Assembly: GCA_001247695.2 (NCBI GenBank)
Contig: LGRX02035513.1
Span: 30,298 to 94,297, forward strand
Origin: Cymbomonas tetramitiformis
Taxonomy: Eukaryota > Chlorophyta > Pyramimonadophyceae > Pyramimonadales > Pyramimonadaceae
Direction: 5' to 3'
Length of the DNA: 64,000 nt
Part shown: positions 1-35,778 of the stretch, one piece after another
Layout: each line of letters begins with the position of its first letter
Position numbering within the stretch: position 1 is the stretch's first letter
Program-made: the position numbers and the translations under genes
Notes under the pieces: model-generated
Told to the model about the DNA's origin: nothing
The model's database searches: none
Seen by the model: the letters and a program-made list of their open reading frames with translations, nothing else

Positions 1-175
1 ACCTCTTCGAGTTTGCTGGAAAGCTTTGATTGAGATTTGGCAGCGGCAGTTGCTTATTTGCTGTTGGGATCCTGCGTCTTCGCACTTAACACTATACGCC
101 TGTACGGCGGAAGCGCTGGCAGATTTTTCGGAATCAGATTGCTGCGTTTCTCCACCATCTTAAGCGACTTTTTCA
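1..175 (+). other. Untranslated leader of retrotransposon 1
   Basis: This stretch precedes the gag start codon and does not match the 3' LTR (12327-12865). It is therefore internal leader sequence between the unseen 5' LTR and gag. No primer-binding site complementary to a tRNA 3' end could be recognised. Confidence 0.6.
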
Positions 176-3100
176 ATGTCCTCTTCACGGCAAGCTTCTT
201 CGCTGTATGTTCCGCCTCAGCGGCGCTCGGGGGTGGCGGAGGCTGCTTCTGGGCCCTCCGGGCTCTCTAGCTCGGCCCGGGTGTTTCAGCTCCGGGATGG
301 GCTTGGGGCTTTGGGGCCCACCCCGTACTTTGTCCCGGAATGGGGGGCGCCAGCCGGGGCGCGGCGAAGCAGCACGGGGGGGGTAGCAGTACAACGCTCT
401 CTGGAGGGCGAATACGCGCTTTTGGCGAGCGCGCCTCTACCTCAAGAGGAACGTCGCACCCAAGCATCGCTGCCTGCCACGCCCACGAATTTCCCCGACG
501 GCTCGCGTGACTCTCCTGGGCTGGTATCTTCCATTGTACGTACGTTTGAGTGCTACTCTACACCCCAGCAGCGTGCAGGGGGTGCAGGTGCCTCAGGTCT
601 ACAACGTAGCCAACCAGCTCTCGAGGAGCTCAACACGGTCGCTATAGCCACCGCTCATAATTTGAGATCATCTCCTCATAGCGAAGCTGTAGTTGACCAT
701 TTGCCTTTGGCACCAGAGCATCTCGTTGGAAACCAGACCCATGAGAGCAACATATTTACGCCTAGGCGTGAAAGTGCTCCTCCAAGTGGCGAGCGCGGTT
801 TGTCAAGCGTGAACGAGTGGAGCGTCAGGCTGGCACGCCAAGCTGTAGCAGTGGATATTTTAGCGGTATGTGCATTGCGTAATTGGTGGAGTACTTGGAC
901 AGCACGAGTGCTCAGCGGGCGTGTTTCATCTGCACTTACGACATGGCACCTACGTGCCCGTCTCGCGCGCATGCGTGTTTCCCTTACAGCATGGCACGAG
1001 CGAGTTCACCGCAAGAACCAGGTCCAACGCAAAAAGCAAGATTTTGCTGGACACGCAAGTTCACGATTGGCGTCCCGGCTCTTGAGTGCATGGCGAGAAG
1101 AACAACGTCGTGTAAAAGAGATCACTCTCGAAATCACGGCGTGCAACATCGCCCGGTCCGAGTTCTACGTGAGGAAGTGTATGAAAGCGTGGAAGGCTAC
1201 CGTGGACTTCGCTTCCAAGTGCACCACCTTTGCGGTCCAGCGTGAACAACATGTGAAGCGCGAAGTCCTCCACGAGTGGTCAGCTCTGACGGACACGCCT
1301 GACGTGACCCCGAAGCAATGGGCGACCTTGCGTAGACATCTTCGCCGCCTGTGTGGCCAAGAAGACTCCATCGCTGCAATCACATGGGAGGTGCAGCTGA
1401 GAACGAAGAGTGGAGAGCAACGCGTGATCCCATCTCGTGGACTCCTTCTGTCGCATGTTACCTCAGCAAGCCACCATTATCATCACCTCCACTCTGCACG
1501 ACCACTCGTCACGACCATCCCAGCCAACCGGCCTGCAAGGCTGGTGCGGTTGGGAGTGAGCGTCGAGGAGGTGATAAAGACTCTAAGGCGTACAACCACC
1601 TTGGGAGCAAGTGTTCAACAGCATGGCGTACAATCTGTACCTAGCCGCAACCCCTATGGCGTCTTGTCGTCTGAAGATGACTCCACGATCGATGAGGAAG
1701 ACGTTCATTCCGCTGACTCCGCCCCACAACCACCTCGATCAAAAGCTTCATCCGCCCCACGACCCACACAACGAGAACGTGCTGTACGTGTCCAGGCTTT
1801 GACGGAGTTAGCCCACGAGAAGGAGGTGGCGAAGCAGGAGCGGAAGCGGCAGAAGTTGGCCAAGCGCAAGCTCGCCAAGGCTCGACGTCGCAGTGACGAA
1901 GGTAAACTGATGTACGACTCCACCTCTACGTCCAGTGAGGAGAAGTCCACACTTTCATCGTGTCAAACATCTTCTTCTGAAGCGCTCTCCTCTGACGCCT
2001 CGCACACCTCTTCATCAAGGAGCTCTCGGCGAAAGGGTGGACGCCAACGGCGGCGCCAAGCTCAAGTCACGCGACACGAGCGGCAACTACGAGAGCTGCA
2101 AGAGGAGTCCGAACGAGTCGCGTTAGATGCGGCCACTGCGCACCAAGCGCAGCTCACAGCGTTGCGCATGGACATGCACAATGCCGTGGAGGAAGCAACC
2201 CGGATGCATCAGGAGCTCCGCACCACGGTGTGCCAAGAAGCGCGACGGGCCGCTCTCGAATCTGCTGAGGAGCAGATAGCGCGCATGCAGCATGCCGCGG
2301 ACGTTGTCTCGCATCAGCATGAGCAAGCTGTAGCATCGCAGGCGGAGGAAGCTGCACGTCATCACCAACAACTTCGAGAAATGCAGCGCGCCGCGGAAGA
2401 GCAACGCCAGCAACTTGACCAAGCAGCTCGAGAGCAACGACTGCTGGAGCAACAAGTGGCGGAGAGCAAGATAGTGGTGCAGGCCGCCCTTGAAGCCGCT
2501 GACGGACGAGCGCACTCACGGCCAGAACAACCACCTAATACCCCCGCGAGCTATGCGACCGTCACAAGTGACGCTCAAGAAGCTGAACGCGAAGCTCTGA
2601 TGGTGCCCCCGTCAGCCACGACTGTGGACGTACGGGGCCACAAAGGCGTGACGTTCGAGGAGGACGCCTCCAAGCGTGCATCTTCCCCCACGAGTGTGCA
2701 TGACCGCCTAGCCAAAATGGATTGGAGGTCCATTAGTGTGCCAGCCGTTACCGCTATCCGTGCACACGTGGAGGAGCACTTACCTGGCCACGTGGGCAAG
2801 ATGGAAGCGGAACGCATGTTCTGTGACGTAGCGAGAAGGTACCGAGACCATGACCTAGCGTCTGGGTGTGGACCGCCGGTCTCCGAAGCCCCGGCCTCTC
2901 AACTTCCTTCACCACCTCTGGCGGGAACGGCGATCGTTTGTTGCGTGTACGACGAAGTCGCGTCCAGCACGTCCAACGTTCCGTGCTCGAGATGCGCTCG
3001 TAGCCCGCAACCCCCTGTAGCCATATGGAATTGCGGGCTTACAGCTCTTTCAGACTTGTCGGAAACCACTCAATTCCTGCCGTTGTGTATATATTGCACG

Positions 3101-4516
3101 CGCGGGGTTTGGCCGGGAGCCTTTGACCGCTTCCCTTCAGTGACCCCGAGGCCATCCTCAGCAATTGGTGGGACCAGTGGGGGCGGCGGAGGCGACGACG
3201 ATGGAGGCGATGGTGATGACGACGGTGACGACCCGGGAGGACCCGGTGGCCATCAAGGGGGGGGGAATGAGCCGCCTGGCGACCCCACTTCTGACGCGCC
3301 TAGCGACCCCTCGCGGAATCTTGGAGATGGACGTCGCGGCCATGGCGGGGGCGGAGGCGGTGACGATCCGCCCGACGATGAGACGTCCTACAGCTTCGGT
3401 TCGAGTAGGAGGTCCTCGTACAATGATGGCAGGCAGCAAAGGGAGGAGTACACGAGGCACTCATATGCCCTCAAGGCCGCGAAGGACATCATGTCCTTGT
3501 ACTCAGCACCGCTGGAAGGGTCCACGAACCCCTTCGGCCCGCTGTTGCGGTTCGTGGACGAGTTCGACAGGTGCTTAGCCCTTCCAGTGGTGCTCCTCGC
3601 GATGAACACCCCGTGCAACGTGCCCAACGGAGCGTTCGAGCTCGGAGAGCCGATTCTCTCGGTGCATATCTTGTTGAAGGAGATCACCCAGCATTGCTTC
3701 CCTACGCCTAGCTCCGAAGGAACGGAGCTGCGAGGGGTTCTCCTGGATGCCGAGGCGGACAAGTCGTTGAACCTTGAGAAGGTCATTGTGCCGCTGGCGA
3801 AGCTGATCGTGCCGCTGAAGAGTGAAATGGCCACCTTGGGCTCGTTCCTACGCCGAGTACGCCAAACTCAAGGACGCATGGCGACACCGCGCAAAGTGCG
3901 CGAGTTTTGGGATGGACTGCATCTAGCCCATCGCGTAGTGACCATGTTGGCGACACACGAGCTCACCACACCGGTTCCGGAATCCGACCTCCTGGACGTC
4001 TTCCTCTCGGGCTTATCCGCGGAGGTACGGAAGGAGGCGTTCGAGATTGCAGAGCGGAAGGGGACCCCCTTGATCCTCCTCGACCGCGCCCTTCCAGCCA
4101 GTCGACGCCTAGCGCTGGAATACGCCATTGAGGCGGAGTTGCATTTGAACAACGCGACGAGTAGGAGAGCGCCAGTGCAGCTACTGGCAGCGGTGGAGGT
4201 CTCGGAGGAGCTACTAGCTCTAGCCGAAGATCGTCCCGCGGGTGCAACTCCTACTGGGCAACGTCTGGGCTCCCCGGAGTACACTGGTTGCAGGTTGTGC
4301 CAAAGCAAAGAGCACTATGCTCGAGAGTGCCCACAGGCTGCTCTTCGTAAGAAGGAGTGGGCCAAAGCACTTCTGGCTGAAACTTTGGACATGGTCATGC
4401 ACGAAGTGGAAACGGATGAATACTGCGACGTGCTCAACGCGGTGTTGCCAAAGGAACTAATGGATTTTGCCGCGGAGGACTCCCTCGAGCTCGGAGTACC
4501 CTCCAAGTCCCAATGA
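176..4516 (+). CDS. Gag polyprotein of retrotransposon 1
   Basis: The predicted protein has 1446 residues, much longer than the usual 300-500 for Ty3/gypsy Gag. Residues about 230-420 hold repeated Trp-containing helices (for example ALTTW, SLTAW, LLSAW, CMKAW). Residues about 620-790 are Arg/Ser-rich and then strongly coiled-coil (Glu/Gln/Ala/Arg). Residues about 1000-1070 are a Gly/Asp-rich linker. Residues about 1100-1330 look like the capsid helical region. A retroviral zinc knuckle CRLCQSKEHYAREC (C-x2-C-x4-H-x4-C) lies near residue 1375. The knuckle and the position before protease make it Gag; the capsid call is weaker. The start is the first ATG of the frame, and the true start could be later. 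The stop overlaps the next ORF in an ATGA. Confidence 0.85.
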   Translation: MSSSRQASSLYVPPQRRSGVAEAASGPSGLSSSARVFQLRDGLGALGPTPYFVPEWGAPAGARRSSTGGVAVQRSLEGEYALLASAPLPQEERRTQASLPATPTNFPDGSRDSPGLVSSIVRTFECYSTPQQRAGGAGASGLQRSQPALEELNTVAIATAHNLRSSPHSEAVVDHLPLAPEHLVGNQTHESNIFTPRRESAPPSGERGLSSVNEWSVRLARQAVAVDILAVCALRNWWSTWTARVLSGRVSSALTTWHLRARLARMRVSLTAWHERVHRKNQVQRKKQDFAGHASSRLASRLLSAWREEQRRVKEITLEITACNIARSEFYVRKCMKAWKATVDFASKCTTFAVQREQHVKREVLHEWSALTDTPDVTPKQWATLRRHLRRLCGQEDSIAAITWEVQLRTKSGEQRVIPSRGLLLSHVTSASHHYHHLHSARPLVTTIPANRPARLVRLGVSVEEVIKTLRRTTTLGASVQQHGVQSVPSRNPYGVLSSEDDSTIDEEDVHSADSAPQPPRSKASSAPRPTQRERAVRVQALTELAHEKEVAKQERKRQKLAKRKLAKARRRSDEGKLMYDSTSTSSEEKSTLSSCQTSSSEALSSDASHTSSSRSSRRKGGRQRRRQAQVTRHERQLRELQEESERVALDAATAHQAQLTALRMDMHNAVEEATRMHQELRTTVCQEARRAALESAEEQIARMQHAADVVSHQHEQAVASQAEEAARHHQQLREMQRAAEEQRQQLDQAAREQRLLEQQVAESKIVVQAALEAADGRAHSRPEQPPNTPASYATVTSDAQEAEREALMVPPSATTVDVRGHKGVTFEEDASKRASSPTSVHDRLAKMDWRSISVPAVTAIRAHVEEHLPGHVGKMEAERMFCDVARRYRDHDLASGCGPPVSEAPASQLPSPPLAGTAIVCCVYDEVASSTSNVPCSRCARSPQPPVAIWNCGLTALSDLSETTQFLPLCIYCTRGVWPGAFDRFPSVTPRPSSAIGGTSGGGGGDDDGGDGDDDGDDPGGPGGHQGGGNEPPGDPTSDAPSDPSRNLGDGRRGHGGGGGGDDPPDDETSYSFGSSRRSSYNDGRQQREEYTRHSYALKAAKDIMSLYSAPLEGSTNPFGPLLRFVDEFDRCLALPVVLLAMNTPCNVPNGAFELGEPILSVHILLKEITQHCFPTPSSEGTELRGVLLDAEADKSLNLEKVIVPLAKLIVPLKSEMATLGSFLRRVRQTQGRMATPRKVREFWDGLHLAHRVVTMLATHELTTPVPESDLLDVFLSGLSAEVRKEAFEIAERKGTPLILLDRALPASRRLALEYAIEAELHLNNATSRRAPVQLLAAVEVSEELLALAEDRPAGATPTGQRLGSPEYTGCRLCQSKEHYARECPQAALRKKEWAKALLAETLDMVMHEVETDEYCDVLNAVLPKELMDFAAEDSLELGVPSKSQ

Positions 4517-7431
4517 GCTCGGGCCCACATCCCCGCGATGAGCCCCCCTCCTACCTCTCGGAGCAGCAGTTGCGGGAGAAGTGGAGAAGAGCCCGTCGAC
4601 GTCAAAGGCGGAGTGCTCCTTGCACAGGATACCTAGACTCCGATGAGCTCAACATGCTACCCTCGCGGGCGATGACTAGCCCTCCTCCCGCGCCGGAGCG
4701 TCAAGTGGTCGAAGCTCGCCTTCGCAAGGAAGCCAAGTCTCCAGTGTGTACGAGCGAGGACCTCACAGACGACTCCCAGCACGTTGAGAAACGGCACCGA
4801 CGTACCCTGAAGGTGACCGAGAGCTACCGCGTGCACTTGGAGCCAACGGGCCAACCATTGCAAGGTTGGCAATTTCGAGCTGTCCGAGGGCAAGGGACGA
4901 GCGCTTTACGCTCCAAAGTGGGCACACGGGGCTTGAGGTCCTCCATCAAGGCTCTGGAAACGGACCTTGCACCGCCCCGTACACCTCCGCGGAGCACGAG
5001 CCCACCGCTTTGGAGAGCCGGGCATCGACGCAGCAGCCGAGGACCCACGCGGTCACCAACGCACAGCGCGGTTACCGCCAACAAGCGAGAAGCTCGAGCT
5101 CGGTCACCCTTACCCGCAGCCCTTAACAAACTTAAAAGGCTGCAAGAATACCGACGACGACGTCAAGACATCCAGCTTGGGCGTCGACCTCGTACGCCCT
5201 CACCTAACGGCAGCACGACTGCCGAGGCAACCTCAACCACATGGAGTGACCGCCCCCGACCATGGCTGTCACCGACCCATGCAGCTCGAGCTGAAGGAGC
5301 ACCAAGGAGGAGGTGGCTCAGTGGGCTGGAGAAGGTTCGCCAACGAGAGAAGCTTAAGCGGGATTATGCCAGTGGCCTCCCATATTTGGAGCGGGACTCT
5401 CCTATAGACGAAGAGCTACTGCACATCTTAGCCAAGGAACAAGCGCAAGAGGAAGTAGAAGATGGACTCCTCCAGTACGCAAGTGACTTGGCGACGAATG
5501 ATATGGCGCGAGCAGCGAAGGACAAGGTCATCCAAGTGGCCTTGTACCCACCTGATTACCCACCCAGGGACCTGGTGCAGACAGCCACCGCTCAAGGGCT
5601 CTTGGCCGATGCAGGCACCTACGAGTTACCATGGGACTCTGACATGGACGACCCTCCTGACCTAGGCGACCCTCATGCCAAGGACGACCCCTTCATATGC
5701 CAGCTCAACAGCATCATCGACAGTGGGGACATGAGCCCTGGCTGGAGTGATCTCTTGGCGGCTGTATCAACATCGCGAGCGCCACCTCGACAGATCAACA
5801 ATTCCAAGGCCCCCACCTTGTTGTTGTTCTGGGCGTACGTGAACGGTCGTCGCGTAAAGGTGCTGGTGGACAGTGGGTGCTCCACCAACATTATCTCGGA
5901 CAAGACTGTACGCAGCATTCCCTCCCTGACGCCTCGACCTCACGAAAACCCCATGCGAGTGCGAGTAGCTGACGGCGCGTCGTACGATGTCAACACGTGC
6001 GTCCGTCCTCGACTGCAAGCAGAGACCACCAAGGGGTTGTACGTCAAGCAATTGGAGCTCAGAGTGATGCCCATTGATCTTTGCGTGGATATTATCCTTG
6101 GAGGACCTTGGCTAGCCTCTCACTCCCCAGTCACCCTGGATTACTCCCGATGGGGTTCCATCCGGTTTGGTTCTGGAAGCAAGAGAGTGGTCATTACAGG
6201 CTGCTCTCCGGGAACGCCAGACCCCTCAAGACCCAAGGATAAGGCCATGGCGTTGGTACAAGGAGTCTTGTTGGACCCCAAAAGGGTACGCAAGGACCTT
6301 CGAGCCCTCCAATCTAAGGATGAGTGTGCCTTCGTGGTGTACCTAGCACCCGACGGCACCTTCGGGGCGGTCGCCTGTAACGAAGAGACCGACGCCGAGA
6401 CCAACGCCAAGCCCAGGGACGCTTCGTCCGAGCGTTGCGCCACGTCTAGCTCTGAGCAGCAAGACGCCCAAGTCGCGGGCGCCATGGACTCCTCCCAAGC
6501 GGATCTGGGTGAGACGGACGCGCCTGCGCTGATGTCCGCGTCAGACACTGACTCCGAAGCCGAGGACGCTCTACTCCTCCGGGAATCTGTGCGGCCCAGC
6601 CCAGGCACCAGTGACGAGGACCACTTGGATAAGGTGTACGCAACAGTGGAGTCCACCCGCCCACAAAACTTTGACGTGGTCGCGCTGGAGGGTGCTGTTG
6701 GCCCCCCGGCGGACAATGCGCCATCCAACAACCTACATCTGGGGTTCTTCCAGAGCAAGCGCGAAGCTTTGGGAGCATTTGCTTTATTACCTGAGCACGT
6801 ACGTGCCCAAGCAATCGACGACCACGCGCAAGGGAAACCACCCACCTGGCATGCCGAAGCCGCAGCCGCGCTGGAGCAGGGAAGGCGCTTACTCCGCGAA
6901 CGTCGGCCGCGACGCAAGCGTGTGCGCTGGAGCGACGAGAAGCCCCATACTGAAGGTTTATCTCAAGAGCAGGCCGCTCCTGTGGCCGAGGAACCACCGT
7001 CACCGACACCGCCGCCCAAGCCCCATGCCATGGAAGCGGAGGAGCCGGACGAGATTGACGAGACAGTGTCCCCGGAGATATGGCAACAGCTGCGCGACCT
7101 TGAGGAGGAGTTCAGGGACGTCATATGTACGGAGCTGCCTGACTCCGTCCAAAGCCGCGACTACAAGAACAACATTCGCTTGCGATCCGACTGGAGTGGG
7201 CAGCCGCTACATCGGCGTAACTACAAGTTGTCGCAAGAGGAGCTTCGGCAACTTCGTGCACAACTTGACGAGCTGTTGGCCAAGGGGTACATCCGTCCAT
7301 CGGCGTCTCCCTGGGGTTGTCCGGTACTTATGGTGCCGAAGCCGAGCAACCCTAAGGAGCTGCGCTTGGTTATCGACTACAGGTCGATAAACGAGATCAC
7401 GGTCAATCAAGGACAAGTACCCTCTTCCTGA
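4513..7431 (+). CDS. Pol part 1: aspartic protease and N-terminal reverse transcriptase
   Basis: The ORF starts at the ATGA that ends gag, so translation probably depends on termination-reinitiation. Residues 1-420 are basic and low-complexity with no recognised domain. The retropepsin-like protease is near residues 430-550, with catalytic Asp453 in VLVDSGCSTN and a later ILGGPWL motif typical of the clan. An acidic linker follows. From about residue 855 the fingers of a Ty3/gypsy RT appear (YIRPSASPWGCPVLMVPK, then LRLVIDYRSIN). The frame ends at TGA 7429-7431, in the middle of RT. RT continues without loss in the next frame from about 7409. A one-base insertion near 7408, a sequence error or a +1 frameshift site could explain this. 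Confidence 0.9.
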   Translation: MSSGPHPRDEPPSYLSEQQLREKWRRARRRQRRSAPCTGYLDSDELNMLPSRAMTSPPPAPERQVVEARLRKEAKSPVCTSEDLTDDSQHVEKRHRRTLKVTESYRVHLEPTGQPLQGWQFRAVRGQGTSALRSKVGTRGLRSSIKALETDLAPPRTPPRSTSPPLWRAGHRRSSRGPTRSPTHSAVTANKREARARSPLPAALNKLKRLQEYRRRRQDIQLGRRPRTPSPNGSTTAEATSTTWSDRPRPWLSPTHAARAEGAPRRRWLSGLEKVRQREKLKRDYASGLPYLERDSPIDEELLHILAKEQAQEEVEDGLLQYASDLATNDMARAAKDKVIQVALYPPDYPPRDLVQTATAQGLLADAGTYELPWDSDMDDPPDLGDPHAKDDPFICQLNSIIDSGDMSPGWSDLLAAVSTSRAPPRQINNSKAPTLLLFWAYVNGRRVKVLVDSGCSTNIISDKTVRSIPSLTPRPHENPMRVRVADGASYDVNTCVRPRLQAETTKGLYVKQLELRVMPIDLCVDIILGGPWLASHSPVTLDYSRWGSIRFGSGSKRVVITGCSPGTPDPSRPKDKAMALVQGVLLDPKRVRKDLRALQSKDECAFVVYLAPDGTFGAVACNEETDAETNAKPRDASSERCATSSSEQQDAQVAGAMDSSQADLGETDAPALMSASDTDSEAEDALLLRESVRPSPGTSDEDHLDKVYATVESTRPQNFDVVALEGAVGPPADNAPSNNLHLGFFQSKREALGAFALLPEHVRAQAIDDHAQGKPPTWHAEAAAALEQGRRLLRERRPRRKRVRWSDEKPHTEGLSQEQAAPVAEEPPSPTPPPKPHAMEAEEPDEIDETVSPEIWQQLRDLEEEFRDVICTELPDSVQSRDYKNNIRLRSDWSGQPLHRRNYKLSQEELRQLRAQLDELLAKGYIRPSASPWGCPVLMVPKPSNPKELRLVIDYRSINEITVNQGQVPSS

Positions 7432-10400
7432 CGTACAAACCCTCCTCGATGACCTACAAGGAGCAACCGTCTTCTCCACAGCAGACGCCTTGTGGGGATT
7501 CTGGCAAGTTCCCATGGAACAGGAGGACATCGAGAAGACAGCCATGACCACCCACTTCGGAGCTTATGAGTGGCTGGTCATGCCTATGGGACTGAGCAAC
7601 TCACCGAGCACGTGGCAAAGAATGATGACGCAGTACCTCGGACACCTACCCTTCTGCAGAGTGTTCGTGGACGACATCATGATTTTCAGTGACACACCTG
7701 AGCAGCATGTCGGCCATGTACGAGCTGTATTAGCGGCCTGTCGCCAGCACAAAGTATACCTCAAGCGGAGCAAGTTGAAGTTGTGCATGCGAGCAGTACG
7801 CTTCCTTGGCCATGTGTGCAGTAAGGAAGGTTGTCGCCCCCAACGCGACAAAGTTGCCTCAGTTCGCGACTGGCCGGAGCTCGAGACTGTCACCCACGTG
7901 CGCCAATTCCTTGGAATGTGTGGCTTTTACCGGCGGTACATCCAGTCCTTCGCTCACATTGCCCACCCTCTCACTCGCCTCACGAAGATGGGAGTGCCAT
8001 GGACTTGGGGCAAGGAGGAGAAAGAAGCCTTCCAACGATTGAAGTCAGCATTGATTTCAGCACCAATCCTCGCCCTACCGGACCAGCGCTCAGCAGCCGA
8101 TGGGTCTCGCCCATTTTGCGTGCAGACCGACGCGAGTGCGGTCGCACTAGGAGGCGTGCTGATGCAAGACCTGGGACGAGGTCTTCAACCGTTGGCCTTC
8201 GAGAGCAGGCAATTCTCCTCGGCCGAGCAGAACTACCACGCTGGGGAGCGGGAGCTGTGCGCCATCCACCACTGCACCACAGTGACGTGGAGGCATTACC
8301 TTATATTCACCGACTTCAAACTCATGGGTGACCACAAACCCTTGCAGTGGCTCTTCGCGCCGGCTCGGGAGCTGAGTCGACGCCAAGCACGCTGGTATGA
8401 AGACTTGGTGGAAGTGGGCGTGCACCAAATGGAGCACGTACCTGGCCGATGCCTAGTAGTTCCGGACGCCCAATCCAGACGACCAGACTACAAGCAGTCA
8501 TCCGCCAGGGAGGGGCTCAAGGAGAAGGGCGTGGTCGACCGGGACACAGACGAGCCTCGTCAGAGTGTGCCAAGGGAGTCGGCTGAGAGCTCAACCCCCG
8601 CCGATCCCACCTCAGTATTCGGTGCAATCGACGAGGACGACACCGACGAAGAGCCGTCCGAGGAGCCCGCTAAAGTCAAGACCCTTGAAGACCCCATCTC
8701 GGTGCTCGACTCCACGTTTGATTACTCCGACTCTGAAGACGAGTCTGTACCTCCGGTCAGCCCCCCGTTGGTCGTTGGGGAGCTCACTCATCTGAATGGG
8801 CTCACCTGGGTGGAAACCCCCGACCTGTGGGAAGACGCAGCTGAGACGTTGCACACCGCGGAGCGCGCCTTGCATGAAGCCACCCTTGCGGGCGTCACTA
8901 CTCGCTCTCGCTCGCAACCGGAGCAAGCCCCCTCTCCAGCCCCCTCAACTCCCCTTAGTCCTTCCCCTCCCAGCAAACAAAGTTCCCCTCCCGCGTCAAG
9001 CTCCCACTACGATAACGTGGTAGACCGGCAGGACTGGAAACTGGTAAAGGAGAAGTTCGAAGAGATCTCAGCGCAGTACGGCCCGTTCGACGTGGACGCG
9101 TGTTGTGACTCCATGGGCGTCAACCGCCAGGTGGACACCTATTGGACGGAGTGCCTCAAGCAGCAATGGCGGGGAAAGCACGTCTGGTGCAACCCCCCCT
9201 ACACCAAGGATAGCAACCTCATTGAGAGGATCCTACGCCACTTTATGGCTGAGTGGCGCGCCGACCCAGAGAACACGTCGGCGATGTTCCTACTGCCGGA
9301 CTATGACGCGTCCTGGCGCACCCTTATCCAGCCCAAGTACGGCCTGCACGTGGTCAAGGTGTTCGACCTCAAGGATGCCAAGGGTCACCCTACATGCTTG
9401 TTTGAGTCACCAGATGGAGGCCGACCAGCGCTGCGGTGGCCCGTGCTGCTGGTGTGGGCGCCAGCGGCCAGCCGGACTCGGCCTCGAGCGAAGAGTGCCC
9501 GTGCGCCCGCCGCTCAAGGTGCAAGCGAGCCTATGGTCACGTCAGGGCCAGCGGCCAAGGCACGCGCAACCAAAGGACCACTGAAGGCATGCCAGTTCGT
9601 GAAAGCACTACGCGCGGAGTACGAACGTAGCCCTTACCTCACGATGTTAAAGGAAGAGCTTTTAGCCGCCCCGCACCAGCGCACGGACACCTTCCGTATG
9701 GTTGACGACATGATCTGGCGCATCGCGGAGGGACGCTACCAGCTGGTGTTGTCATCCGACTCTCCCCTTCGAGAGATAGTCATGCGTGAAGCGCACGAGT
9801 CTCCCGCAGCGGGACACACCGGACGAGATAAGACTCTTGCTCGGATAGTGCGGCGGTTCTGGTGGCCTCGCATGAACAAAGACGTCACCGACTGGACCCG
9901 CTCGTGCTTGATATGCCAGCAGACCCGCCCGAGGAACAGCTATCCGGATGGCCAGCTGAACCCCCTCCAGGTCCCGGTCAGGCTGTGGCAGGTGGTGAGC
10001 ATTGACTTCGTCACAGGTCTGCCGCGCACGGAGCGGGGCTACGACGCCTTCGCCACGTTCACGGACAAGTTGTCCAAGATGGTGCACGTGGTCCCCATGC
10101 TGTACTCTGACAGTTCCGCTGAGCAAGTGGCACGAATGTACTTCGACCATGTTTGGCGACTGCACGGTGCTCCCATGAAGATCGTTTGTGACAGGGACTC
10201 TCGCTTCCGTGACGCCTTTCATATGGAGTTGCATCGCCTTATGGGGGTGCAGGTGGCCTCCACTACGCCGTACCATCCACAAGGGGACGGTCAAGCGGAG
10301 CACACAAACCACACGGTGGAGCGCATGTTGCGCGCCTACGTTGACGCAAACCAGACAGACTGGGATTTGTGGTGCACCCCGGTGGAGTACGCCATTAACG

Positions 10401-12271
10401 ACTCCAGGTCCGCGGTTACTGGATTCACACCCTTCGAGCTTTGCTATGGGCATGCCCCAGCGTCGCAGCTCGACTTCTTCGTAGAAGCTGCATTGGCCTC
10501 TCGTAGGGGCCGCGCCAAGGGGGGGAGAGGGGACGTCGTGAAGAAAGGCACGGCCCACGAGACCGCCCGGCAGTTTGTTCAGCAGTTGCAGACTGCTCGC
10601 GATAGGTTGCTGGTAGCTCAGCAGCAGCAAGTGGCCCAGTATGATGCTCGCCATCGCGCTCGCCGGTACGCAATAGGTGACATGGTGTGGGTGGACGCCA
10701 CGCATCTCACCCAGCCCGGGGATCGGGGCCTACACAAGAAGTTGCTGAAGAAGCGCCTGGGTCCGATGGAGGTGCTGGAGGCCTTCCACAGCGACCGGCA
10801 GATGGAGCTCGCCACCGAGGACCGAGGGCCCCCCGCGGCTTACCGCCTGAAGCTACCACCACAGTGGAAGGTGCACGACGTCTTCACCGTGGATAGACTC
10901 ACCCCAGTGGAGTCGGGCCAGGACAAGTTCGCGGACAGGAGTGCGGAGATTCCGCCTCCCCCTGTGGACGTGAGCGGTCGTAAGGAGATGGCGGTGGAGT
11001 GCATTGAGAGGTCACGCACGAGGAGACGTAGCGGGCGGAAATGGACGGAGTACATGGTCAAATGGGTAGGTATGCCGCGCTCCGAGAATGAATGGAAAAC
11101 TCGCGAGGACCTCGAATTCGATGGAGTTGGCCGAAAAGGGATACCTAACCGCGCTCTTCAGGAGTTCGAGAAGGTCGAGGCCAAGAGGCAAGAACGTGAA
11201 AAGAGTAGAGTCACTCGCAAACGCGAGGAGTCAGCAGGAGCGATATGGTTGACGGATCCTGAAGAGTTACAGGCGGACGGAATGGCGTGGATCCCGGAAG
11301 AACGGGCCGACGACGAGGTGGGCACATTCGCGACGGTGTCGTCCACCAGTTTCATGCCATCCCAAGGACCTGGTCGAGGAGCGGCACGCCTACAGCCGTC
11401 TCGACGCCCAATACGGATCTTGGTGTTGTTTTGTGGCACAGGCTCCGTCGAACGACAGTTCAGCAAGCAGTTTCCTGGGTGTGAGGTAGTCTCGGTGGAC
11501 ATCCAGAACCGATGGAAGCCCACTCACTGCGAAAACGTCCTGCACTGGGACTATCGGCAGTTCTCGCCCAAGCACTTTGACGTCATTTGGGCGAGCCCTC
11601 CATGCACGGAGTATAGCCAAGCCAAAACGGTAGGGATACGAGACTTGCGTGGTGCTGACAGACAAGTGCGGAGAACGCTGGAGATCATCAAGTACCTCCA
11701 GCCGAGCTTCTACTTCATCGAGAACCCGCGTGGCCGAGCTCCTCATGGGTTACACACTCGCCGATGCATGCAAGGGTTGCCACCTCCGCATCTGGCTACG
11801 TATTGTAAGTATGGTATGCCCTACAAGAAGCCCACCCACTTCTGGACCAACGCGCCTATCGCCACTCTGAAGTCTTGCGACCCCGAAAACCCCTGCGACT
11901 TCAAACGCCGTTATGGGCGGCACGAGAAGATGGCGCAGAGCGGCTCCGCCAGCAGAGTGTCGGGCGACCCTAGACCAGGCATGGGAGCTGGATGGCACGT
12001 GTATGGCATCCCCGCAGCCTTGCTTAAACAATTATTCAGCTCTCTACCGGTGGAACAACCCGTGGGGGCAATCGCAGCGGTGTGTGAATACCTAGCGGAG
12101 CTGCTTTGGAGAGATGAAGATGAGACAGGTCTCAACGATGAAAGAGTCTGCGCTAATCCGGAAGAAGCTGACGAGGAGCCGGTGACCTTGATGCCGGAGT
12201 ACAGCCCTACGCCGCCACCAGTGATGTCCGCCGACAGCGAGTGGGACACCATGGGCTCCGAATCAGCCTAA
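7409..12271 (+). CDS. Pol part 2: RT, RNase H, Dam-like domain, integrase, chromodomain, C5-methyltransferase
   Basis: The frame is open from 7391, and homology to RT resumes at 7409 (KDKYPLPDV). An isolated start would be TTG at 7490, and the residue numbers below count from there. RT active site FVDDIMIF is at residue 59. RNase H shows TDAS (Asp214) and GDHKPLQW (about 280). An acidic and Ser/Pro-rich spacer follows. The Dam-like domain is at about 510-660 and the integrase at about 705-1000 (Asp839, Asp901, Glu937). The chromodomain is at about 1168-1230 and the C5-methyltransferase at about 1308-1520. All catalytic signatures listed are intact. The polyprotein presumably needs cleavage by the element's own protease. 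The stop at 12269-12271 is followed by the polypurine tract. Confidence 0.93.
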   Translation, partial: KDKYPLPDVQTLLDDLQGATVFSTADALWGFWQVPMEQEDIEKTAMTTHFGAYEWLVMPMGLSNSPSTWQRMMTQYLGHLPFCRVFVDDIMIFSDTPEQHVGHVRAVLAACRQHKVYLKRSKLKLCMRAVRFLGHVCSKEGCRPQRDKVASVRDWPELETVTHVRQFLGMCGFYRRYIQSFAHIAHPLTRLTKMGVPWTWGKEEKEAFQRLKSALISAPILALPDQRSAADGSRPFCVQTDASAVALGGVLMQDLGRGLQPLAFESRQFSSAEQNYHAGERELCAIHHCTTVTWRHYLIFTDFKLMGDHKPLQWLFAPARELSRRQARWYEDLVEVGVHQMEHVPGRCLVVPDAQSRRPDYKQSSAREGLKEKGVVDRDTDEPRQSVPRESAESSTPADPTSVFGAIDEDDTDEEPSEEPAKVKTLEDPISVLDSTFDYSDSEDESVPPVSPPLVVGELTHLNGLTWVETPDLWEDAAETLHTAERALHEATLAGVTTRSRSQPEQAPSPAPSTPLSPSPPSKQSSPPASSSHYDNVVDRQDWKLVKEKFEEISAQYGPFDVDACCDSMGVNRQVDTYWTECLKQQWRGKHVWCNPPYTKDSNLIERILRHFMAEWRADPENTSAMFLLPDYDASWRTLIQPKYGLHVVKVFDLKDAKGHPTCLFESPDGGRPALRWPVLLVWAPAASRTRPRAKSARAPAAQGASEPMVTSGPAAKARATKGPLKACQFVKALRAEYERSPYLTMLKEELLAAPHQRTDTFRMVDDMIWRIAEGRYQLVLSSDSPLREIVMREAHESPAAGHTGRDKTLARIVRRFWWPRMNKDVTDWTRSCLICQQTRPRNSYPDGQLNPLQVPVRLWQVVSIDFVTGLPRTERGYDAFATFTDKLSKMVHVVPMLYSDSSAEQVARMYFDHVWRLHGAPMKIVCDRDSRFRDAFHMELHRLMGVQVASTTPYHPQGDGQAEHTNHTVERMLRAYVDANQTDWDLWCTPVEYAINDSRSAVTGFTPFELCYGHAPASQLDFFVEAALASRRGRAKGGRGDVVKKGTAHETARQFVQQLQTARDRLLVAQQQQVAQYDARHRARRYAIGDMVWVDATHLTQPGDRGLHKKLLKKRLGPMEVLEAFHSDRQMELATEDRGPPAAYRLKLPPQWKVHDVFTVDRLTPVESGQDKFADRSAEIPPPPVDVSGRKEMAVECIERSRTRRRSGRKWTEYMVKWVGMPRSENEWKTREDLEFDGVGRKGIPNRALQEFEKVEAKRQEREKSRVTRKREESAGAIWLTDPEELQADGMAWIPEERADDEVGTFATVSSTSFMPSQGPGRGAARLQPSRRPIRILVLFCGTGSVERQFSKQFPGCEVVSVDIQNRWKPTHCENVLHWDYRQFSPKHFDVIWASPPCTEYSQAKTVGIRDLRGADRQVRRTLEIIKYLQPSFYFIENPRGRAPHGLHTRRCMQGLPPPHLATYCKYGMPYKKPTHFWTNAPIATLKSCDPENPCDFKRRYGRHEKMAQSGSASRVSGDPRPGMGAGWHVYGIPAALLKQLFSSLPVEQPVGAIAAVCEYLAELLWRDEDETGLNDERVCANPEEADEEPVTLMPEYSPTPPPVMSADSEWDTMGSESA
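9005..9480 (+). other. DNA N6-adenine methyltransferase-like (phage Dam family) domain inside Pol
   Basis: Reading in the pol frame, FDVDACCDS (Asp534) is followed by DTYWTECLKQQW and VWCNPPYTKDS (Asn568-Pro-Pro-Tyr571), then MFLLPDYDASW. This order is that of the phage-type 'DNA N-6-adenine-methyltransferase' (Dam) family: an F-D-D-x-C region, an NPPY catalytic motif, then L-L-P with an Asp and Trp. NPPY is the amino-methyltransferase signature (N6-adenine or N4-cytosine), so the exact base is not fixed by sequence. The domain sits between RNase H and integrase, flanked by Pro/Ser/Ala-rich linkers that would suit proteolytic release. Confidence 0.8.
9590..10480 (+). other. Integrase domain of retrotransposon 1
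   Basis: The zinc-binding HHCC module reads H-E-S-P-A-A-G-H and then CLICQQT. The catalytic core has Asp839 (IDFVTGLP), Asp901 (CDRDSRF) and Glu937 (GQAEHTNH). Exactly 35 residues separate the second Asp from the Glu, the canonical DD35E spacing. All catalytic residues are present, so the domain is predicted to be functional. Confidence 0.93.
10985..11180 (+). other. Chromodomain at the integrase C terminus
   Basis: The segment reads VECIERSR, EYMVKWVGMPRSENEW and ALQEFEK in order. These are the beta strands, aromatic positions and C-terminal helix of a chromodomain. Chromovirus chromodomains bind histone marks such as methylated H3K9 and steer integration into matching chromatin; that is family knowledge. 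Which mark is read here cannot be told. It lies directly before the C5-methyltransferase, giving a reader-writer pair. Confidence 0.85.
11405..12040 (+). other. Cytosine-5 DNA methyltransferase domain at the end of Pol
   Basis: Motif I is FCGTGSVERQF (Phe1314), with acidic SVDIQNRW as motif II. Motif IV is ASPPCTEYSQA with catalytic Cys1372. Motif VI is IENPRG with Glu1411; ENP replaces the usual ENV. A later YGMPYKKPTHFWTN block stands where motif VIII is expected. The compact build and the PPCTEYS/ENP signatures resemble phage- and algal-virus-type cytosine methyltransferases more than cellular DNMT1 or DNMT3. Catalytic residues are all present. A tail of about 70 acidic residues follows. 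The product would be 5-methylcytosine in DNA. Confidence 0.85.
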
Positions 12272-12310: not shown

Positions 12311-12325
12311 TGAAGGGGGGGGGAG
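12311..12325 (+). promoter_or_regulatory. Polypurine tract of retrotransposon 1
   Basis: A run of G bases flanked by GAA and AG lies between the pol stop codon and the first TG of the 3' LTR. This is where the plus-strand primer for reverse transcription is expected. Confidence 0.85.
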
Positions 12326-12326
12326 T

Positions 12327-12865
12327 TGTGCTAGGACAACACACGGTGTCATGCGCGGATGACTCAGCAATGTCATACATGCCAGAAGTGTCATACGCGC
12401 CTTACAGCATTAGCGCCCGAGACCCCTGTTGAGGAAGAGACCCCCCTTATATGGGAGTACACAGTACCACTGTACTGTGTAATAATGTGACATGTAGAAT
12501 ACTGGCACATCATGCTGCATGATAATGTAGTACAAGCATATGATAGGTTGATGAGACTTGGCCATGCTGACTAGGATTACCTCAGAGAGCTGAGTGAATA
12601 AGTAATGGCCAAGGCCAAAGAAACAGTTGAGATTTCTAGAGTAAAACAGCCGCATGGCAAAAGTCAATATAATACCTAATTCTTACTGCAAATATATGTA
12701 CTGAGTCTGGACATAGTTCCTAAGAATCGACATAGCTTGATTAGTCTTATATAGTGCATAATATAGAACCTTGCACTATATATGATCCACAAGTAGTTTC
12801 ACAGTCACTGTCAAGTAGAGGTTTAGTACTGCCTCCTACAGTACCACCAGGCAGCAATTAGCACA
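12327..12865 (+). repeat. 3' LTR of retrotransposon 1
   Basis: The LTR begins TGTGCTA and ends TAGCACA, a perfect 7-bp terminal inverted repeat (8 bp with the flanking T and A). It follows the polypurine tract directly and is 539 bp long. A TATA-like sequence (CTTATATGG) is near 12446. The next five bases (12866-12870, ACAGT) would be the target duplication, but the partner copy lies outside the window. Confidence 0.85.
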
Positions 12866-14092
12866 ACAGTCGCAATGACTGCAAAAGACATGCTACGGAA
12901 AGCATGGACACATACCTTAGATTCCCAGTGTTTCCACACCACCAGAGCCCAAAAGCAATTGGGGTGGTAACTGGGATCGGCGCGTCGGATATTTATATCC
13001 CGCCTCCTCGCCAAGAGCCATGGGGCGGTTGTTATGCAATTTTGAGTTGCGACACTGGAACCTAGACTGGGCCTGTTTAGAAGCTAAAAAGGCCCAGTTT
13101 TTCACAATCCAGTAAAAACATGCAAACAGGCACACACACCTGTAAAATTCTATCGAAGAATTCAATTCGAAAGCGCATTTTCGAACTAGCTAGCCTAAAG
13201 GCAGAGAACGCACACAAAACAAGTACTTAAAAATCACTTAAACATCACGTAACGTGGGAGCTCCTAGCCCCACATCAAATGTCGAGCGTCCCTATACCAA
13301 CTCACCTGCCCTTCAGGATATCACTATGATTCAAGGTGCACCGGTAGATCCAGCTTTCCGATCTTACTAAAAGGTTGTGAGCGCACCTGGCGGGAATGAT
13401 GTCCGCTCATTCCGTGTGTGACCAACTGCCACAGACTATTTTCGAAAACCTGCTCATGATTTCATTTGCGAACACTGTAAGTGAATTACGAAAGGAAAAT
13501 AGGTGCCCCGGCAGGATCTACCGTCTCAAAATCTCGCACGAAAATTATGGGGTAAATCATAGTTTTGGGCAAGCGACAAAGTGCGTGGGTGTGTGGGTTA
13601 CGTAAACACCAAACGCATCTTGCTTGCGGCGACCACGCAATGACCAACCTCCTGCGGAAAATATACGGTACGCGAAAATATCAGAAACTATTTTATACTA
13701 GCAACACAATACAATCAAATTATTTAGGCTGATCTAATCAGAGTTTGCAGTATGGTTTTCGGCTCACGTGCTTTCAAACTTCGGAGACGCACGTAAGACT
13801 AAATGGGAAGTCAAGAGCTCACGATACTGTGTCCATCAAGGTGAGGTCGCCATGGCGCAGTCCGAGCGTATGCGCCAGTGACATTTCTGCTGATGTCATC
13901 GATTACTGGAACGCGAAGAAACGGTGCAGTGCGTTCGGGATTTCCGATGACGGTTACAATCCAAAGCGAAACGAGAACGCGGATCGCGGATCATCACCAT
14001 CGTTATGAGCACGCTCTCAGGCGATTCAGGAACGGGGATCGCAAAATGTCGTATGCAGAACACGATCGCTCCGGAACGGGGGGTAACGGGGG
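12866..14092. other. Intergenic, AT-rich, no supported gene
   Basis: Only short unrelated ORFs occur and none shows a domain or splice-consistent coding. No repeat of note was found. Confidence 0.5.
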
Positions 14093-15054
14093 ACAGTCGA
14101 TTACGCGTTCGGAACGCGATGACGTTTTCCAGATGTACACCAAATGACACCCGAGAGGCGTGCAGAATTGTGTGCGGCGAATTCCTCACGCATAAATGTT
14201 TCTAGATTGATGAAGCAAATATCCTCGGGATGGTGCACGTCGCACATGGAATCGTACTTGGTGATGTAGCTCCGTGGAACGTCAACCACGAATAATGACC
14301 AATGCCCCGGGCCCCCAGGATGGTGGATAGGCACCATGAAGATATCGCAACACGTTATGTCATACCCCAATGCGCGCTCGGTATTCCAACTGCGCACATT
14401 GCGGCTGTACACGGGGGCGGCTTGTGGGTCTATGGCCATGGGCTCCTGAGAACCAGGTGGTGTAATGTCCACGAACGTGTCTCCCACTAGTTGCACCGCG
14501 TGCATCCGATGGTCGGGGTTGAATACTTCCGTTAACTTCGTATAAAACCTAGCCGAGAAATAGTGGATACGTGGGGCCTGGCCAGATGAATGTCGTTGCT
14601 TCTCGACGTGACGTAGGTACGCTAGATACAAATCCACAATTTCGTCATTTAGCATTCGCCCGGGGAGTAAACGGTCCATCGGGCTTGGTGCATGCGCAGG
14701 CGACGAGATGCAAGGAACCGTACTCGGAGATGGTATCGGCGGTGGGGTAGGCGTAGGAATATCCGTCGTGGTTAAACGCGCAGATCGAGTGGTATCACAC
14801 CCACCCATGAAAGCTTGGAATAAAGTAAGCGGTCGTAGAGGACTTAGTAGTGGCTCAACCCGAGCGGAAGTCCCGGACAAGGGTTCGGAACGTGGGGTGG
14901 TCGTAACCTTGCAATCCAGACGAATTAGAAGAACGTCGAATAGGAGTCGAATACTTTCGGCGCGAACGTGGAGTACTGAGGGTGGCAACCGAGGCGGGCG
15001 CCTGAAAGATAAAGGGCTCCGCGGTGATGGCCGGAGGGGGCGATACGCCGGCAT
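14093..15054 (-). pseudogene. Ulp1/SENP-like (C48) cysteine peptidase domain, catalytic Cys out of frame
   Basis: Residues about 128-317 of the minus-strand frame read LLPGRMLNDEIVDLYL, then DIFMVPIHH, then GHWSLFVVD (His251) and YITKYDSM (Asp268). This is the Ulp1 fold. The 17-residue His-to-Asp step equals that of yeast Ulp1. The catalytic Cys should come about 50 residues after the Asp, but the frame stops at 14101. An Asp-Cys pair appears in a shifted frame at 14093-14098. The domain therefore has a frame break at its active site, is spliced, or holds a sequence error. The first 65 residues of the ORF overlap the upstream repeat ORF in another frame and are probably not coding. Ulp1 peptidases remove SUMO or act in transposons; the partner here is unknown. 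Confidence 0.65.
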
Positions 15055-16483
15055 CGATGCGCATGGTCACGGCTTGCTGCGCGATCTGCGTGAGTGTTCC
15101 ACCATCATCGGGGTGGGATATGTCGAGAGGTGGGAGACATAGCACAGCAACGGCGTCAGGTTGAGCTAGCCCGGTGGTGACTGAGGCGGCCGCTTGGAGA
15201 GAGTTGGGAGCAGCGTCGACCGCCGGAGGAGGAGATATGCCGCCTTCAGTGCGCATCGCCACGGCTTGCTGCGCGAACTGCGTAAGAGTTCCGCCCGCAT
15301 CGGGGTGGGATATGTCGAAAGGTGGTTGACGTAACACAACCATGGGATCGGGCGGACCAAGCCTGGGGGCGACTGAGGCGGCCGCCTGCATAAAATTGGG
15401 AGCAGCGTCGACAGCCGGAGGCGGCAAGAAACCGCCTTCGATGCGCATGGCCACGGCTTGCTGCGCGATCTGCGTAAGTGTTCCGCCATAATCGGGGTAG
15501 AAAGAGTCGGCGAGAGGAGGTTGACGCAGCACAACAGCGGGGTCGGGCTGAGCGGGCCCAGAGGCGACGGAGGCGGCCGCTTGAAAGGGGCGAAAGATAC
15601 CCTCGTCGATAAGCATGGCCACGGCTTGCTGAGCAAGTTGAGTGGTGGGTAGTGGATCGTCGACCTCAGGGGCGGAAGGCGGTGCTTGGACAGGGGCATG
15701 GTCAGCTCGGAGTATCGGTGCCTCGCGCACACCCGTAGTCGCCACGGCCGCATCGGCGGAGGGAGGACCGGTGGCGGCTGTAGGTAATAAACCCTTGTCG
15801 AGGAGCATGGCCACGGCCTGCCGAGCAAGCTGGGTGCAAGGTAGTGGATCGTCGACCTCAGGGGCGGAAGGCGGTGCTTGGACAGGGGCATGGTCAGCTC
15901 GGAGTATCGGTGCCTCGCGCACACCCGTAGTCGCCACGGCCGCATCGGCGGAGGGAGGAACGGTGGCGGCCGTAGGTAATAAACCGTTGTCGAGGAGCAT
16001 GGCCACGGCCTGCCGAGCAAGCTGGGTGCAAGGTAGTGGATCGTCGACCTCAGGGGCGGAAGGCGGTGCTTGGATAGGGGCATGGTCGGCTCGGAGTATC
16101 GGTGCCTCGCGCACACCCGTAGTCGCCACGGCCGCATCGGCGGAGGGAGGAACGGTGGCGGTTGTAGGTAACAAACCCTTGTCGAGGAGCATGGCCACGG
16201 CCTGCCGAGCAAGTTGGGTGCAAGGTAGTGGATCGTCGACCTCAGGGGCGGAAGGCGGTGCTTGGACAGGGGCATGGTCAGCTCGGAGTATCAGTGCCTC
16301 GCGCACATCCGTAGTCGCCACGGCCGCATCGGCGGAGGGAGGAATGATGGCGGACATATCATGGTCGATGTCCATAGCCACAGCCTGTTGACGAGTTCTT
16401 TGTGCAAGACGGGCGCGTCCCATCAATCGTGCACGTTGTCGTTCACGGGACGCGAGAATGCGGTTTTTACGAGTCCGTTGCAA
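14855..16483 (-). CDS. Repeat protein upstream of, and probably joined to, the Ulp1-like peptidase
   Basis: The predicted 542 residues start with a basic Arg-rich segment, then carry about eight copies of a 64-residue repeat, each centred on a QxAVAM helix with a following Gly. The first four copies are nearly identical (ADHAPVQAPPSAPEVDDPLP and neighbours); the last four are diverged. The tail is basic and Ser-rich and overlaps the peptidase ORF in another frame. The simplest reading is one spliced or frameshifted gene: basic N terminus, repeat array, Ulp1-like peptidase. No known domain was recognised in the repeat. Its Pro/Ala/Asp composition suggests a flexible spacer with short helices. 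Confidence 0.5.
   Translation of the reverse strand: MQRTRKNRILASRERQRARLMGRARLAQRTRQQAVAMDIDHDMSAIIPPSADAAVATTDVREALILRADHAPVQAPPSAPEVDDPLPCTQLARQAVAMLLDKGLLPTTATVPPSADAAVATTGVREAPILRADHAPIQAPPSAPEVDDPLPCTQLARQAVAMLLDNGLLPTAATVPPSADAAVATTGVREAPILRADHAPVQAPPSAPEVDDPLPCTQLARQAVAMLLDKGLLPTAATGPPSADAAVATTGVREAPILRADHAPVQAPPSAPEVDDPLPTTQLAQQAVAMLIDEGIFRPFQAAASVASGPAQPDPAVVLRQPPLADSFYPDYGGTLTQIAQQAVAMRIEGGFLPPPAVDAAPNFMQAAASVAPRLGPPDPMVVLRQPPFDISHPDAGGTLTQFAQQAVAMRTEGGISPPPAVDAAPNSLQAAASVTTGLAQPDAVAVLCLPPLDISHPDDGGTLTQIAQQAVTMRIDAGVSPPPAITAEPFIFQAPASVATLSTPRSRRKYSTPIRRSSNSSGLQGYDHPTFRTLVRDFRSG
15056..16370 (-). repeat. 192-bp in-frame tandem repeat (64 residues)
   Basis: The sequence AGTGGATCGT recurs at 15651, 15843, 16035 and 16227, an exact 192-bp period. 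Diverged copies with spacing from about 168 to 194 bp are marked by ACGGCTTGCTG at about 15067, 15261, 15453 and 15621. The period is a multiple of three and keeps the frame open. Confidence 0.9.
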
Positions 16484-24086: not shown

Positions 24087-24093
24087 AGACGAC
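24087..24093. repeat. Left target-site duplication of retrotransposon 2 (AGACGAC)
   Basis: The same seven bases lie immediately after the element at 38805-38811. Seven bases is longer than the usual 4-6 bp for this class; one or two matches may be chance. Confidence 0.65.
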
Positions 24094-24585
24094 TGTAACA
24101 AACGCCGGCCTCCCATGGTACCGTGCCGGGTTTGTCCAGCTAGTGACAGGCGTGACAGATATGACGAGTATGACAGATCTCGCGTGGGATGACTGCTCGA
24201 GAGAAATAGACTTGGTAAAGAAGATATGGTCATCGTCAGGTGACCGCGAAGTGATAAGAGGATATGACAGTTACAAGTATGCCACTGACGTGTCAGTCAG
24301 AATACGGTAAACGGTAACATTGTTAAAGCTGGCACAGAATAATGACTTTCTATTGGCAGATGAAGATTTCAGGGCGGAAGCCTGTTACAGTTTTTGCAGA
24401 TGTGACAATGACTCGAGATATAAGTAAGCTCTGACCGTAGGTCAGAACTAGAGGACTCATTATTGTTTTGCCTTCGCAAGTGCTAGGTGGCTGTTCGCAT
24501 GCCAGTGCTAGACCGCTAAGACAGTTCTGCTCACAGTTTTGTACAATAATTCGTACTTTTGGTTATTATGTTGATCTTTTGATGA
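24094..24585 (+). repeat. 5' LTR remnant of retrotransposon 2
   Basis: Nearly identical to 38058-38552; the later copy has a 3-bp insertion (CGG) near 38500. The remnant starts part-way into the full LTR (37836-38584) and lacks its last 32 bases, then runs straight into sequence leading to the RT ORF. Confidence 0.9.
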
Positions 24586-24606
24586 TCGAACCCGCCGGTA
24601 GCCGCG

Positions 24607-30306: not shown

Positions 30307-30359
30307 GCAGTGTCGACATCGGATCCGGTCCGACCTTGCCAAGTTAGCTCGGCATCTTT

Positions 30360-30900
30360 GCCTTGTAATCGGTGTCAGGGTCGGTGCAGGCCTTCGGCCC
30401 GCACTTGTAGGCGGTGCCAAGGCCGGTGCAGGCCTTCGGCCTGCCTTGACAGTGTCGGTGCAGGCCTTCGGCCCACACTTGTAGGCGGTGCCAAGGCCGG
30501 TGCAGGCCTCCGGCCTGCCTTGACAGTGTCGGTGCAGGCCTTCGGCCCGCACTTGTAGGCGGTGCCAAGGCCGGTGCAGGCCTTCGGCCTGCCTTGCCAG
30601 TGTCGGCGCAGGCCTTCGGCCTGCCTTGCCAGTGTCGGTGCATGCCCGGTAGAGGCTATCGCATGCATGCATGCCCGTAAGAGGCGTGTGGCAGGCCCGT
30701 GGGAGGCGTGTGGCAGGCCCGTGCGCTATGGAAGGTTGTCGCAGGCCCGTGAGAGGCCGTCGCATACCCGTGGGAGGTTGTCGGAGGCCCGTGGGAGGCC
30801 GTCGCAGGCCCCGCCGTTAGAGACTGTCGCAGTCCTGCGGGAGGCTGTCGTAGGCCTGTGGCGCCGTGAGAGGCCGTCGCAGGTCCTTGGGGGGCCAAAA
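30360..30900. repeat. GC-rich subterminal repeats of the hAT element
   Basis: Tandem, imperfect units based on GGTGCAGGCCTTCGGCC, alternating with TGTAGGCGGTGCCAAGGCC, grade into units based on GTCGCAGGCCCGTGGGAGGC. Each unit contains short palindromes (GGCCTTCGGCC variants). Several accidental ORFs of low complexity arise from the array. Confidence 0.85.
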
Positions 30901-30904
30901 TCCA

Positions 30905-35720: not shown

Positions 35721-35778
35721 TGAAAATTGACGGTGTCGGATCATCTACGGAAATGATCCGACACCGGTTTCGACACTG

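Follow-up and report, generated by a model that had tools for sequence, protein, structure and literature searches.

The window, the whole 64,000-nucleotide stretch of Cymbomonas tetramitiformis DNA analysed here, carries a retrotransposon whose coding region consists of a gag-like open reading frame (ORF) followed by two Pol frames. Domain calls were made using hmmscan against the Pfam curated cut-offs, with PHROGs used in addition for the two methyltransferases. The features of the element are listed below.

164..4516, + strand, gag-like ORF of 1450 aa
4513..7431, + strand, first Pol frame, with an aspartic protease and then the start of the reverse transcriptase (RT)
5833-6108, + strand, aspartic protease (Asp_protease_2 31.5 bits, cut-off 24.3; gag-asp_proteas 29.8 bits, cut-off 28.2)
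near 7403..7407, + strand, frame break inside the RT of the window copy (tblastn of P0004, P0006 and P0007; ORF ends)
7391..12271, + strand, second Pol frame, open for 1626 aa
7991..8425, + strand, RNase H (RT_RNaseH 95.3 bits)
8954..9508, + strand, Dam-type amino-methyltransferase domain, as modelled (Pfam, PHROGs, structure model)
9761..10345, + strand, integrase zinc-binding domain and core (Integrase_H2C2 78 bits)
10721..11119, + strand, SH3 (Tf2-1-like) domain and chromodomain (SH3_Tf2-1 33.0 bits)
10991-11119, + strand, chromodomain (PF00385 Chromo 28.5 bits, cut-off 25.1)
11348..12052, + strand, C5 cytosine methyltransferase domain, as modelled (Pfam, PHROGs, structure model)
12312..12325, + strand, putative polypurine tract (sequence)
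12327..13300, + strand, putative 3' LTR, starting TGTGCTAGG just after the polypurine tract; the end at 13300 is a guess

The second Pol frame holds, in order, the rest of the RT (RVT_1 is also matched in this frame by Pfam), RNase H, the Dam domain, the integrase, SH3, the chromodomain and the C5 methyltransferase. The ATG of the first Pol frame, at 4513, shares the letters ATGA (4513-4516) with the gag stop, a layout familiar from stop-restart translation. Toward its C-terminus, at about 4286-4336, the gag-like ORF has a zinc-knuckle-like motif that scores below the Pfam cut-offs (zf-CCHC 17.2 bits, zf-CCHC_2 18.8 bits). The integrase core is likewise below its cut-off (rve 22.4 bits, cut-off 32.6), with the D,D(35)E residues visible in the translation. 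The 5' LTR lies outside the window, within which we found neither a second LTR copy nor a primer-binding site; the window also contains no tRNA and no Rfam family at the gathering score.

The order protease-RT-RNase H-integrase is that of a Ty3/gypsy Pol, as is the DDE integrase with its zinc-binding domain, and the chromodomain at the integrase C-terminus is a feature of chromoviruses. By sequence, the element is a chromodomain-bearing LTR retrotransposon of Ty3-like type from C. tetramitiformis, a marine green alga (Pyramimonadophyceae) under whose name its closest protein matches are annotated. We rejected a DIRS retrotransposon because of the DDE-type integrase and because no phage-integrase family is matched at E <= 1 in P0001-P0003 (Pfam; P numbers denote proteins in our comparison).

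In P0004, P0006 and P0007, the RT frame runs continuously across the site at 7403-7407 (tblastn), so the window copy, or its sequence, is damaged in the RT. The break sits upstream of the Dam and C5 domains, both of which are unbroken. P0004, a C. tetramitiformis protein, matches the window at 98.5-99.6% identity along two stretches; in the Dam region (residues 530-700), its identity to the window frame is 100%.

Two methyltransferase domains in one Pol

An adenine-type and a cytosine-type methyltransferase had been placed within a single Pol by the original prediction, at 9005-9480 and 11405-12040, respectively. Both positions agree with the matches below, which fall in the 7391-12271 frame and exceed the Pfam cut-offs for the HMMs named at the time, PF05869 and PF00145. 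The predicted methyltransferase fold was also recovered, as the models have a mean pLDDT of 87.3 (Dam) and 86.5 (C5) and methyltransferase folds are among the best structural matches of each.

9023-9232, + strand, Pfam part of the Dam domain (PF05869, residues 545-614, 37.4 bits, cut-off 28.1)
9086-9106, + strand, Dam motif I, FDVDACC (sequence)
9191-9202, + strand, Dam NPPY motif (sequence)
11414-11731, + strand, Pfam part of the C5 domain (PF00145 DNA_methylase, residues 1342-1447, 25.6 bits, cut-off 22)
11429-11446, + strand, C5 FCGTGS motif (sequence)
11597-11605, + strand, C5 PPC motif (sequence)
11720-11728, + strand, C5 ENP motif (sequence)

Taken in isolation, the Dam domain scores 43.1 bits against PF05869, a family matched by 19 of the 20 rows of alignment A1, and PHROGs place it in phrog_111 (2.9e-12). 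On its curated score and NPPY motif it is a member of the PF05869 family; its presumed target, by family, is DNA adenine, with N4 of cytosine or RNA as candidate alternatives. It does not reach phage_N6A_met TIGR01712 (26.5 bits against an NCBIfam cut-off of 97.05), and its profile finds nothing at E below 0.5 among the sequences of solved structures. The nearest solved fold is that of PCIF1, a cap-specific adenosine methyltransferase that acts on capped RNA, with 12-15% identity in the alignments. This counts against an action on DNA and gives rise to another reading, in which the Dam-like domain would methylate RNA as PCIF1 does, either the RNA of the element or its cap, and the C5 domain would act on DNA or RNA. 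The sequence matches, in contrast, are to phage DNA adenine methyltransferase families (PF05869 and phrog_111, with TIGR01712 below its cut-off), and we consider methylation of RNA improbable.

The C5 domain belongs to PF00145 by its curated score, its PPC and ENP motifs and its fold, and matches phrog_757 (2.6e-17). Its fold is nearest to DNMT3, and its sequence matches in the PDB include DNMT2-type enzymes; it falls short of Dcm TIGR00675 (21.9 bits against an NCBIfam cut-off of 100.65). Both methyltransferases of the element are prokaryote/phage-like in sequence, and its C5 enzyme is compact; the domain families are those of phage Dam (PF05869, TIGR01712) and of the compact C5 enzymes of phages (phrog_757), which are phage proteins. 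Among the matches listed, the best phage records are 24-34% identical to the domains (best 15 of 441 and best 15 of 22) and IMG/VR loci 25-43% (7 loci, and best 80 of 127); we name no donor for either domain.

Distribution and descent of the pair

The Dam region matched 27 related proteins and the C5 region 64. A search with RT-RNase H gave 771 matches, of which the best 120 were used; the proportions reported here describe that sample and not nature. Among the matches listed, the most distant members of the clade described below have about 43-50% identity in RT-RNase H. In the 164 polyproteins thus compared, including that of the window and many that are truncated, local profiles detect both domains in 65, Dam only in 38, C5 only in 11 and neither in 50. 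Twelve dual-domain polyproteins are named as C. tetramitiformis (P0005, P0008, P0016, P0020, P0021, P0022, P0025, P0026, P0027, P0028, P0079 and P0090); the C5 domain is cut short in 8 of the 12, and the Dam domain in P0028.

A tree was built over 405 Pol positions from 112 of the 164 polyproteins; the others, including P0099, P0100 and P0104, were set aside because their matches to RT, RNase H or integrase were short or out of order. It contains a Ty3-like clade of 60 members, with a support of 1.0, that includes every element in the tree with a Dam domain between RNase H and integrase. Within the clade we scored motifs, namely [NDS]xP[YFW] for Dam and PPC and ENP for C5: 38 members have both sets, 8 have C5 only, 5 have Dam only, 2 have neither, 1 has a partial C5 set and 6 have cut tails. 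The 53 members with complete tails lack the Dam motif in 10 cases, the C5 motifs in 7 and both in 2. Mutual backup between the two enzymes is not supported, as a double loss in 2 of 53 compares with 1.3 expected under independence, for sequences that are related and hence not independent.

Tree distances for Pol, C5 and Dam correlate at 0.69-0.74, whereas 500 permutations reach at most 0.29; this correlation, over 49 proteins (43 in the case of Dam), is a measure of common descent and does not formally test co-transfer. Because the architecture recurs across the clade and the distances agree, the Dam and C5 pair is old and was inherited with Pol. Most likely, the ancestor of the clade already had the pair, with several later losses of each activity.

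The frame break near 7403-7407 might be read as the mark of a chimera or an assembly artefact that fused unrelated genes. Set against it are the congruent trees and the same domain order in many separate proteins, including the 12 named above, which leave the chance of such a fusion close to nil; that copies with a common architecture would be found elsewhere had also been anticipated. A chance match or other artefact was rejected on the domain scores, the folds, the separate copies and the congruent trees.

Constraint on the catalytic residues was assessed on Dam matches of at least 130 aa and C5 matches of at least 180 aa. All 58 near-complete C5 domains in this set have C1405 and E1444-N1445-P1446, and 57 have P1404; D569 occurs in all 61 Dam domains and N601 in 55 of them. 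These figures bear on whether the two domains are non-catalytic passengers, retained as DNA- or RNA-binding modules. Such a role would fit the motif-less Dam domain kept in 8 C5-positive members of the clade, as well as the degenerate C5-like remnants seen by eye in the tails of some Dam-only members, for which hmmsearch scores are marginal (best 9.3 bits, 12 tails). We nevertheless find it highly improbable, given that the Dam motif is retained in the larger part and that the C5 catalytic residues are nearly invariant among sequences 38-67% identical to that of the window.

Other arrangements occur as well. The shorter Ty3-like polyproteins P0125, P0131, P0143-P0145, P0148-P0150 and P0160 have a Dam-like domain before the RT and no C5 domain that we could find; P0125, P0131, P0149, P0150 and P0160 are examples of this position in Ty3-like elements outside the clade, and the Dam motif is absent in P0143 and P0144. 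P0074 and P0076, also outside the clade, have a Dam-like domain behind the C5 domain. These differing positions suggest repeated capture of Dam-type enzymes by such elements, or relocation. The C5 domain of P0044 and P0070 is located at or near the N-terminus, before the RT, and not at the C-terminus. In P0078, a partial protein of Symbiodinium necroappetens, PF05970, a PIF1-type helicase, accompanies a C5 domain from this family, with 46% identity over 63% of the query.

Candidate substrates and roles

That related elements keep the Dam and C5 pair suggests that they may chemically mark their own DNA. In LTR elements, Pol is packaged together with RNA and cDNA, which makes the cDNA of the element itself the likeliest substrate. 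As the best explanation of the evidence as a whole, to which we give about an even chance, the encoded Dam and C5 enzymes would methylate newly made element cDNA. Pol would be packaged with Gag and then cleaved by the protease of the element, which may free the Dam domain from its position between RNase H and integrase. Both enzymes could then act on new cDNA in the particle or the pre-integration complex, and the C5 domain, if it stays tethered to the integrase (intasome), could also act on the ends of the cDNA and on the site of insertion. The resulting marks might make incoming DNA resemble host DNA or shield it against nucleases or sensors, and the new copy would be methylated from the outset, which may pre-silence it.

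Several observations count against methylation of the cDNA. Conservation of both domains is lower than that of RNase H and integrase: the window and P0006 share 94% identity in each of the latter, 87% in Dam and 80% in C5, with 59-78% in the linkers and 41% in the tail. In P0031, Dam is 48% identical to the window and its adjoining linkers 49%, while C5 is 57% identical and its linker 15%. The RT frame of the window copy is interrupted, and neither activity appears essential, given that losses of each recur in separate lineages. CpG is not depleted (observed/expected ratio of 0.90-0.99 in the ORFs of the window copy against 0.88 in 14000-64000), so any heavy, old CpG methylation has left no trace in this copy. 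GATC is mildly rarer in the element, with 27 sites, or 0.79 of the number expected under a Markov model, compared with 1.01 for the rest of the window; we infer nothing from this because other 4-mers deviate as much (TGCA 1.31, ATAT 1.69).

The C5 domain lies behind the integrase and the chromodomain, an arrangement that would also suit self-silencing or targeting: the host would repress the marked insertion site or new copy, the chromodomain would steer the element to heterochromatin and harm to the host would be reduced. A PHD finger (PF00628) is annotated in the relatives P0030, P0034, P0043 and P0053, instead of or besides the chromodomain, and would fit the same role. In addition, the most over-represented scaffolds of the alga contain cytosine methyltransferase-like sequence, and transcripts related to such scaffolds are found at ordinary levels (PMC5741210). 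Against this, the Dam domain does not adjoin the chromodomain of the window copy, which itself raises doubts. Among PDB chains, it matches those of CHD1 and HP1; at what we take to be the HP1 cage positions, it seems to hold one of the three aromatics and to lack the other two, and by the same presumed positions the chromodomains of P0064 and P0065 look more canonical. Self-silencing or targeting is a fairly unlikely reading. The original prediction had combined the two methyltransferase types with a chromatin reader in a single Pol; the combination stands, and is the rule across the clade, but a histone-reading role is doubtful for the chromodomain of the window copy, and the writing of marks at insertion sites, which was also envisaged, is a candidate role.

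Retrotransposon-borne C5 enzymes have been published, as the original prediction noted: De Mendoza et al. (2018, PMC5890265) describe them in LINE and DIRS elements of dinoflagellates and in a gypsy element of a charophyte. Two DIRS-borne enzymes produced de novo CG methylation in yeast, and the gypsy- and LINE-borne ones had no activity there, a result that the authors call inconclusive and that counts against our proposal (PMC5890265). The gypsy element, KnitGypsy-Dnmt3 of Klebsormidium nitens, likewise joins a gypsy-type Pol to a C5 enzyme, but its enzyme groups with eukaryotic Dnmt3, whereas that of Cymbomonas matches phage-type families in sequence; the passages concerned mention no adenine-type enzyme, to which the Dam domain of the Cymbomonas element is an addition (PMC5890265). 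SymbioDIRS-Dnmt3 and SymbioLINE-Dnmt are retrotransposon-borne C5 enzymes of an alga-like protist, those of DIRS being active in yeast, but they belong to other retrotransposon classes, and the same passages describe no second methyltransferase for them. A term search of the main text of PMC5890265 returned neither Cymbomonas nor 6mA nor chromodomain.

Dam-like enzymes are also known from retrotransposons. DIRS-type elements with a Dam-like N6A methyltransferase are cited in PMC5890265, and PMC6338049 names both methyltransferase types in retrotransposons, separately. DIRS elements, however, use a tyrosine recombinase, whereas the Cymbomonas element is of the LTR type, with a DDE integrase, and has a C5 domain and a chromodomain in addition. 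A transposon of Ectocarpus encodes a ParB-like domain along with a methyltransferase whose predicted product is N4-methylcytosine or N6-methyladenine, and similar proteins are present in other algal transposons (PMC12477816). The passages of PMC12344493 and PMC9998398 contain no dual-enzyme retrotransposon or similar. More widely, we found no description of a retrotransposon with both enzymes in the open-access titles, abstract openings and selected passages among the matches listed. C5-bearing and Dam-bearing retrotransposons are thus known separately; judged by its domain matches, one Ty3-like clade retains both beside chromatin-reader-type domains.

The genome of C. tetramitiformis has been reported to contain 84,319 LTR elements amounting to 140.6 Mb, with Chlamyvir-related chromoviral pol sequences (PMC10675990), and a cytosine methyltransferase was noted in its most abundant repeats, which also have similarity to chromodomain and RNase H (PMC5741210). 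These are probably the same as, or sister to, the elements described here, but the relevant passages of both papers describe no architecture, adenine-type enzyme or function.

We tentatively extend the proposal of cDNA methylation, at somewhat less than even chances, to the whole of this old Ty3-like clade, which would write 6mA-type and 5mC marks on its own cDNA and seed both into its hosts at high copy. Such two-mark self-modification, if true, would be analogous to the protective methylation of phages. The clade opens a long-standing question to testing, namely why a parasite would encode enzymes whose marks can serve its hosts in silencing it. As elements that could supply 6mA or 5mC to the genomes of algae, its members also matter for the reading of algal methylomes.

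Other features of the window

A second, decayed Ty3-like element lies at 24093-38552.

24093-24585 and 38057-38552, direct repeats, 97.8% identical
24586-26535, RT-RNase H
26877-26984, C5 piece resembling motif I, with no family match
27149-27322, broken C5 methyltransferase piece (PF00145 38.6 bits, scored over slightly more than this interval)
29975-30283 and 35767-36096, integrase fragments
36552-36635, PHD finger (37.6 bits)

The window thus seems to contain two retroelements with C5 enzymes, the second of which has its C5 domain between RNase H and integrase. An ORF of this second element, at 37133-37798, has the look of a Rossmann methyltransferase (DPWAGTG ... TSPWF) and is possibly a second methyltransferase-like domain; it has no match in Pfam, PHROGs (E<0.1) or the PDB sequences. 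Elsewhere in the window, tandem 192-bp repeats at 15014-16469 lie inside a long ORF on the - strand (14855-16483).
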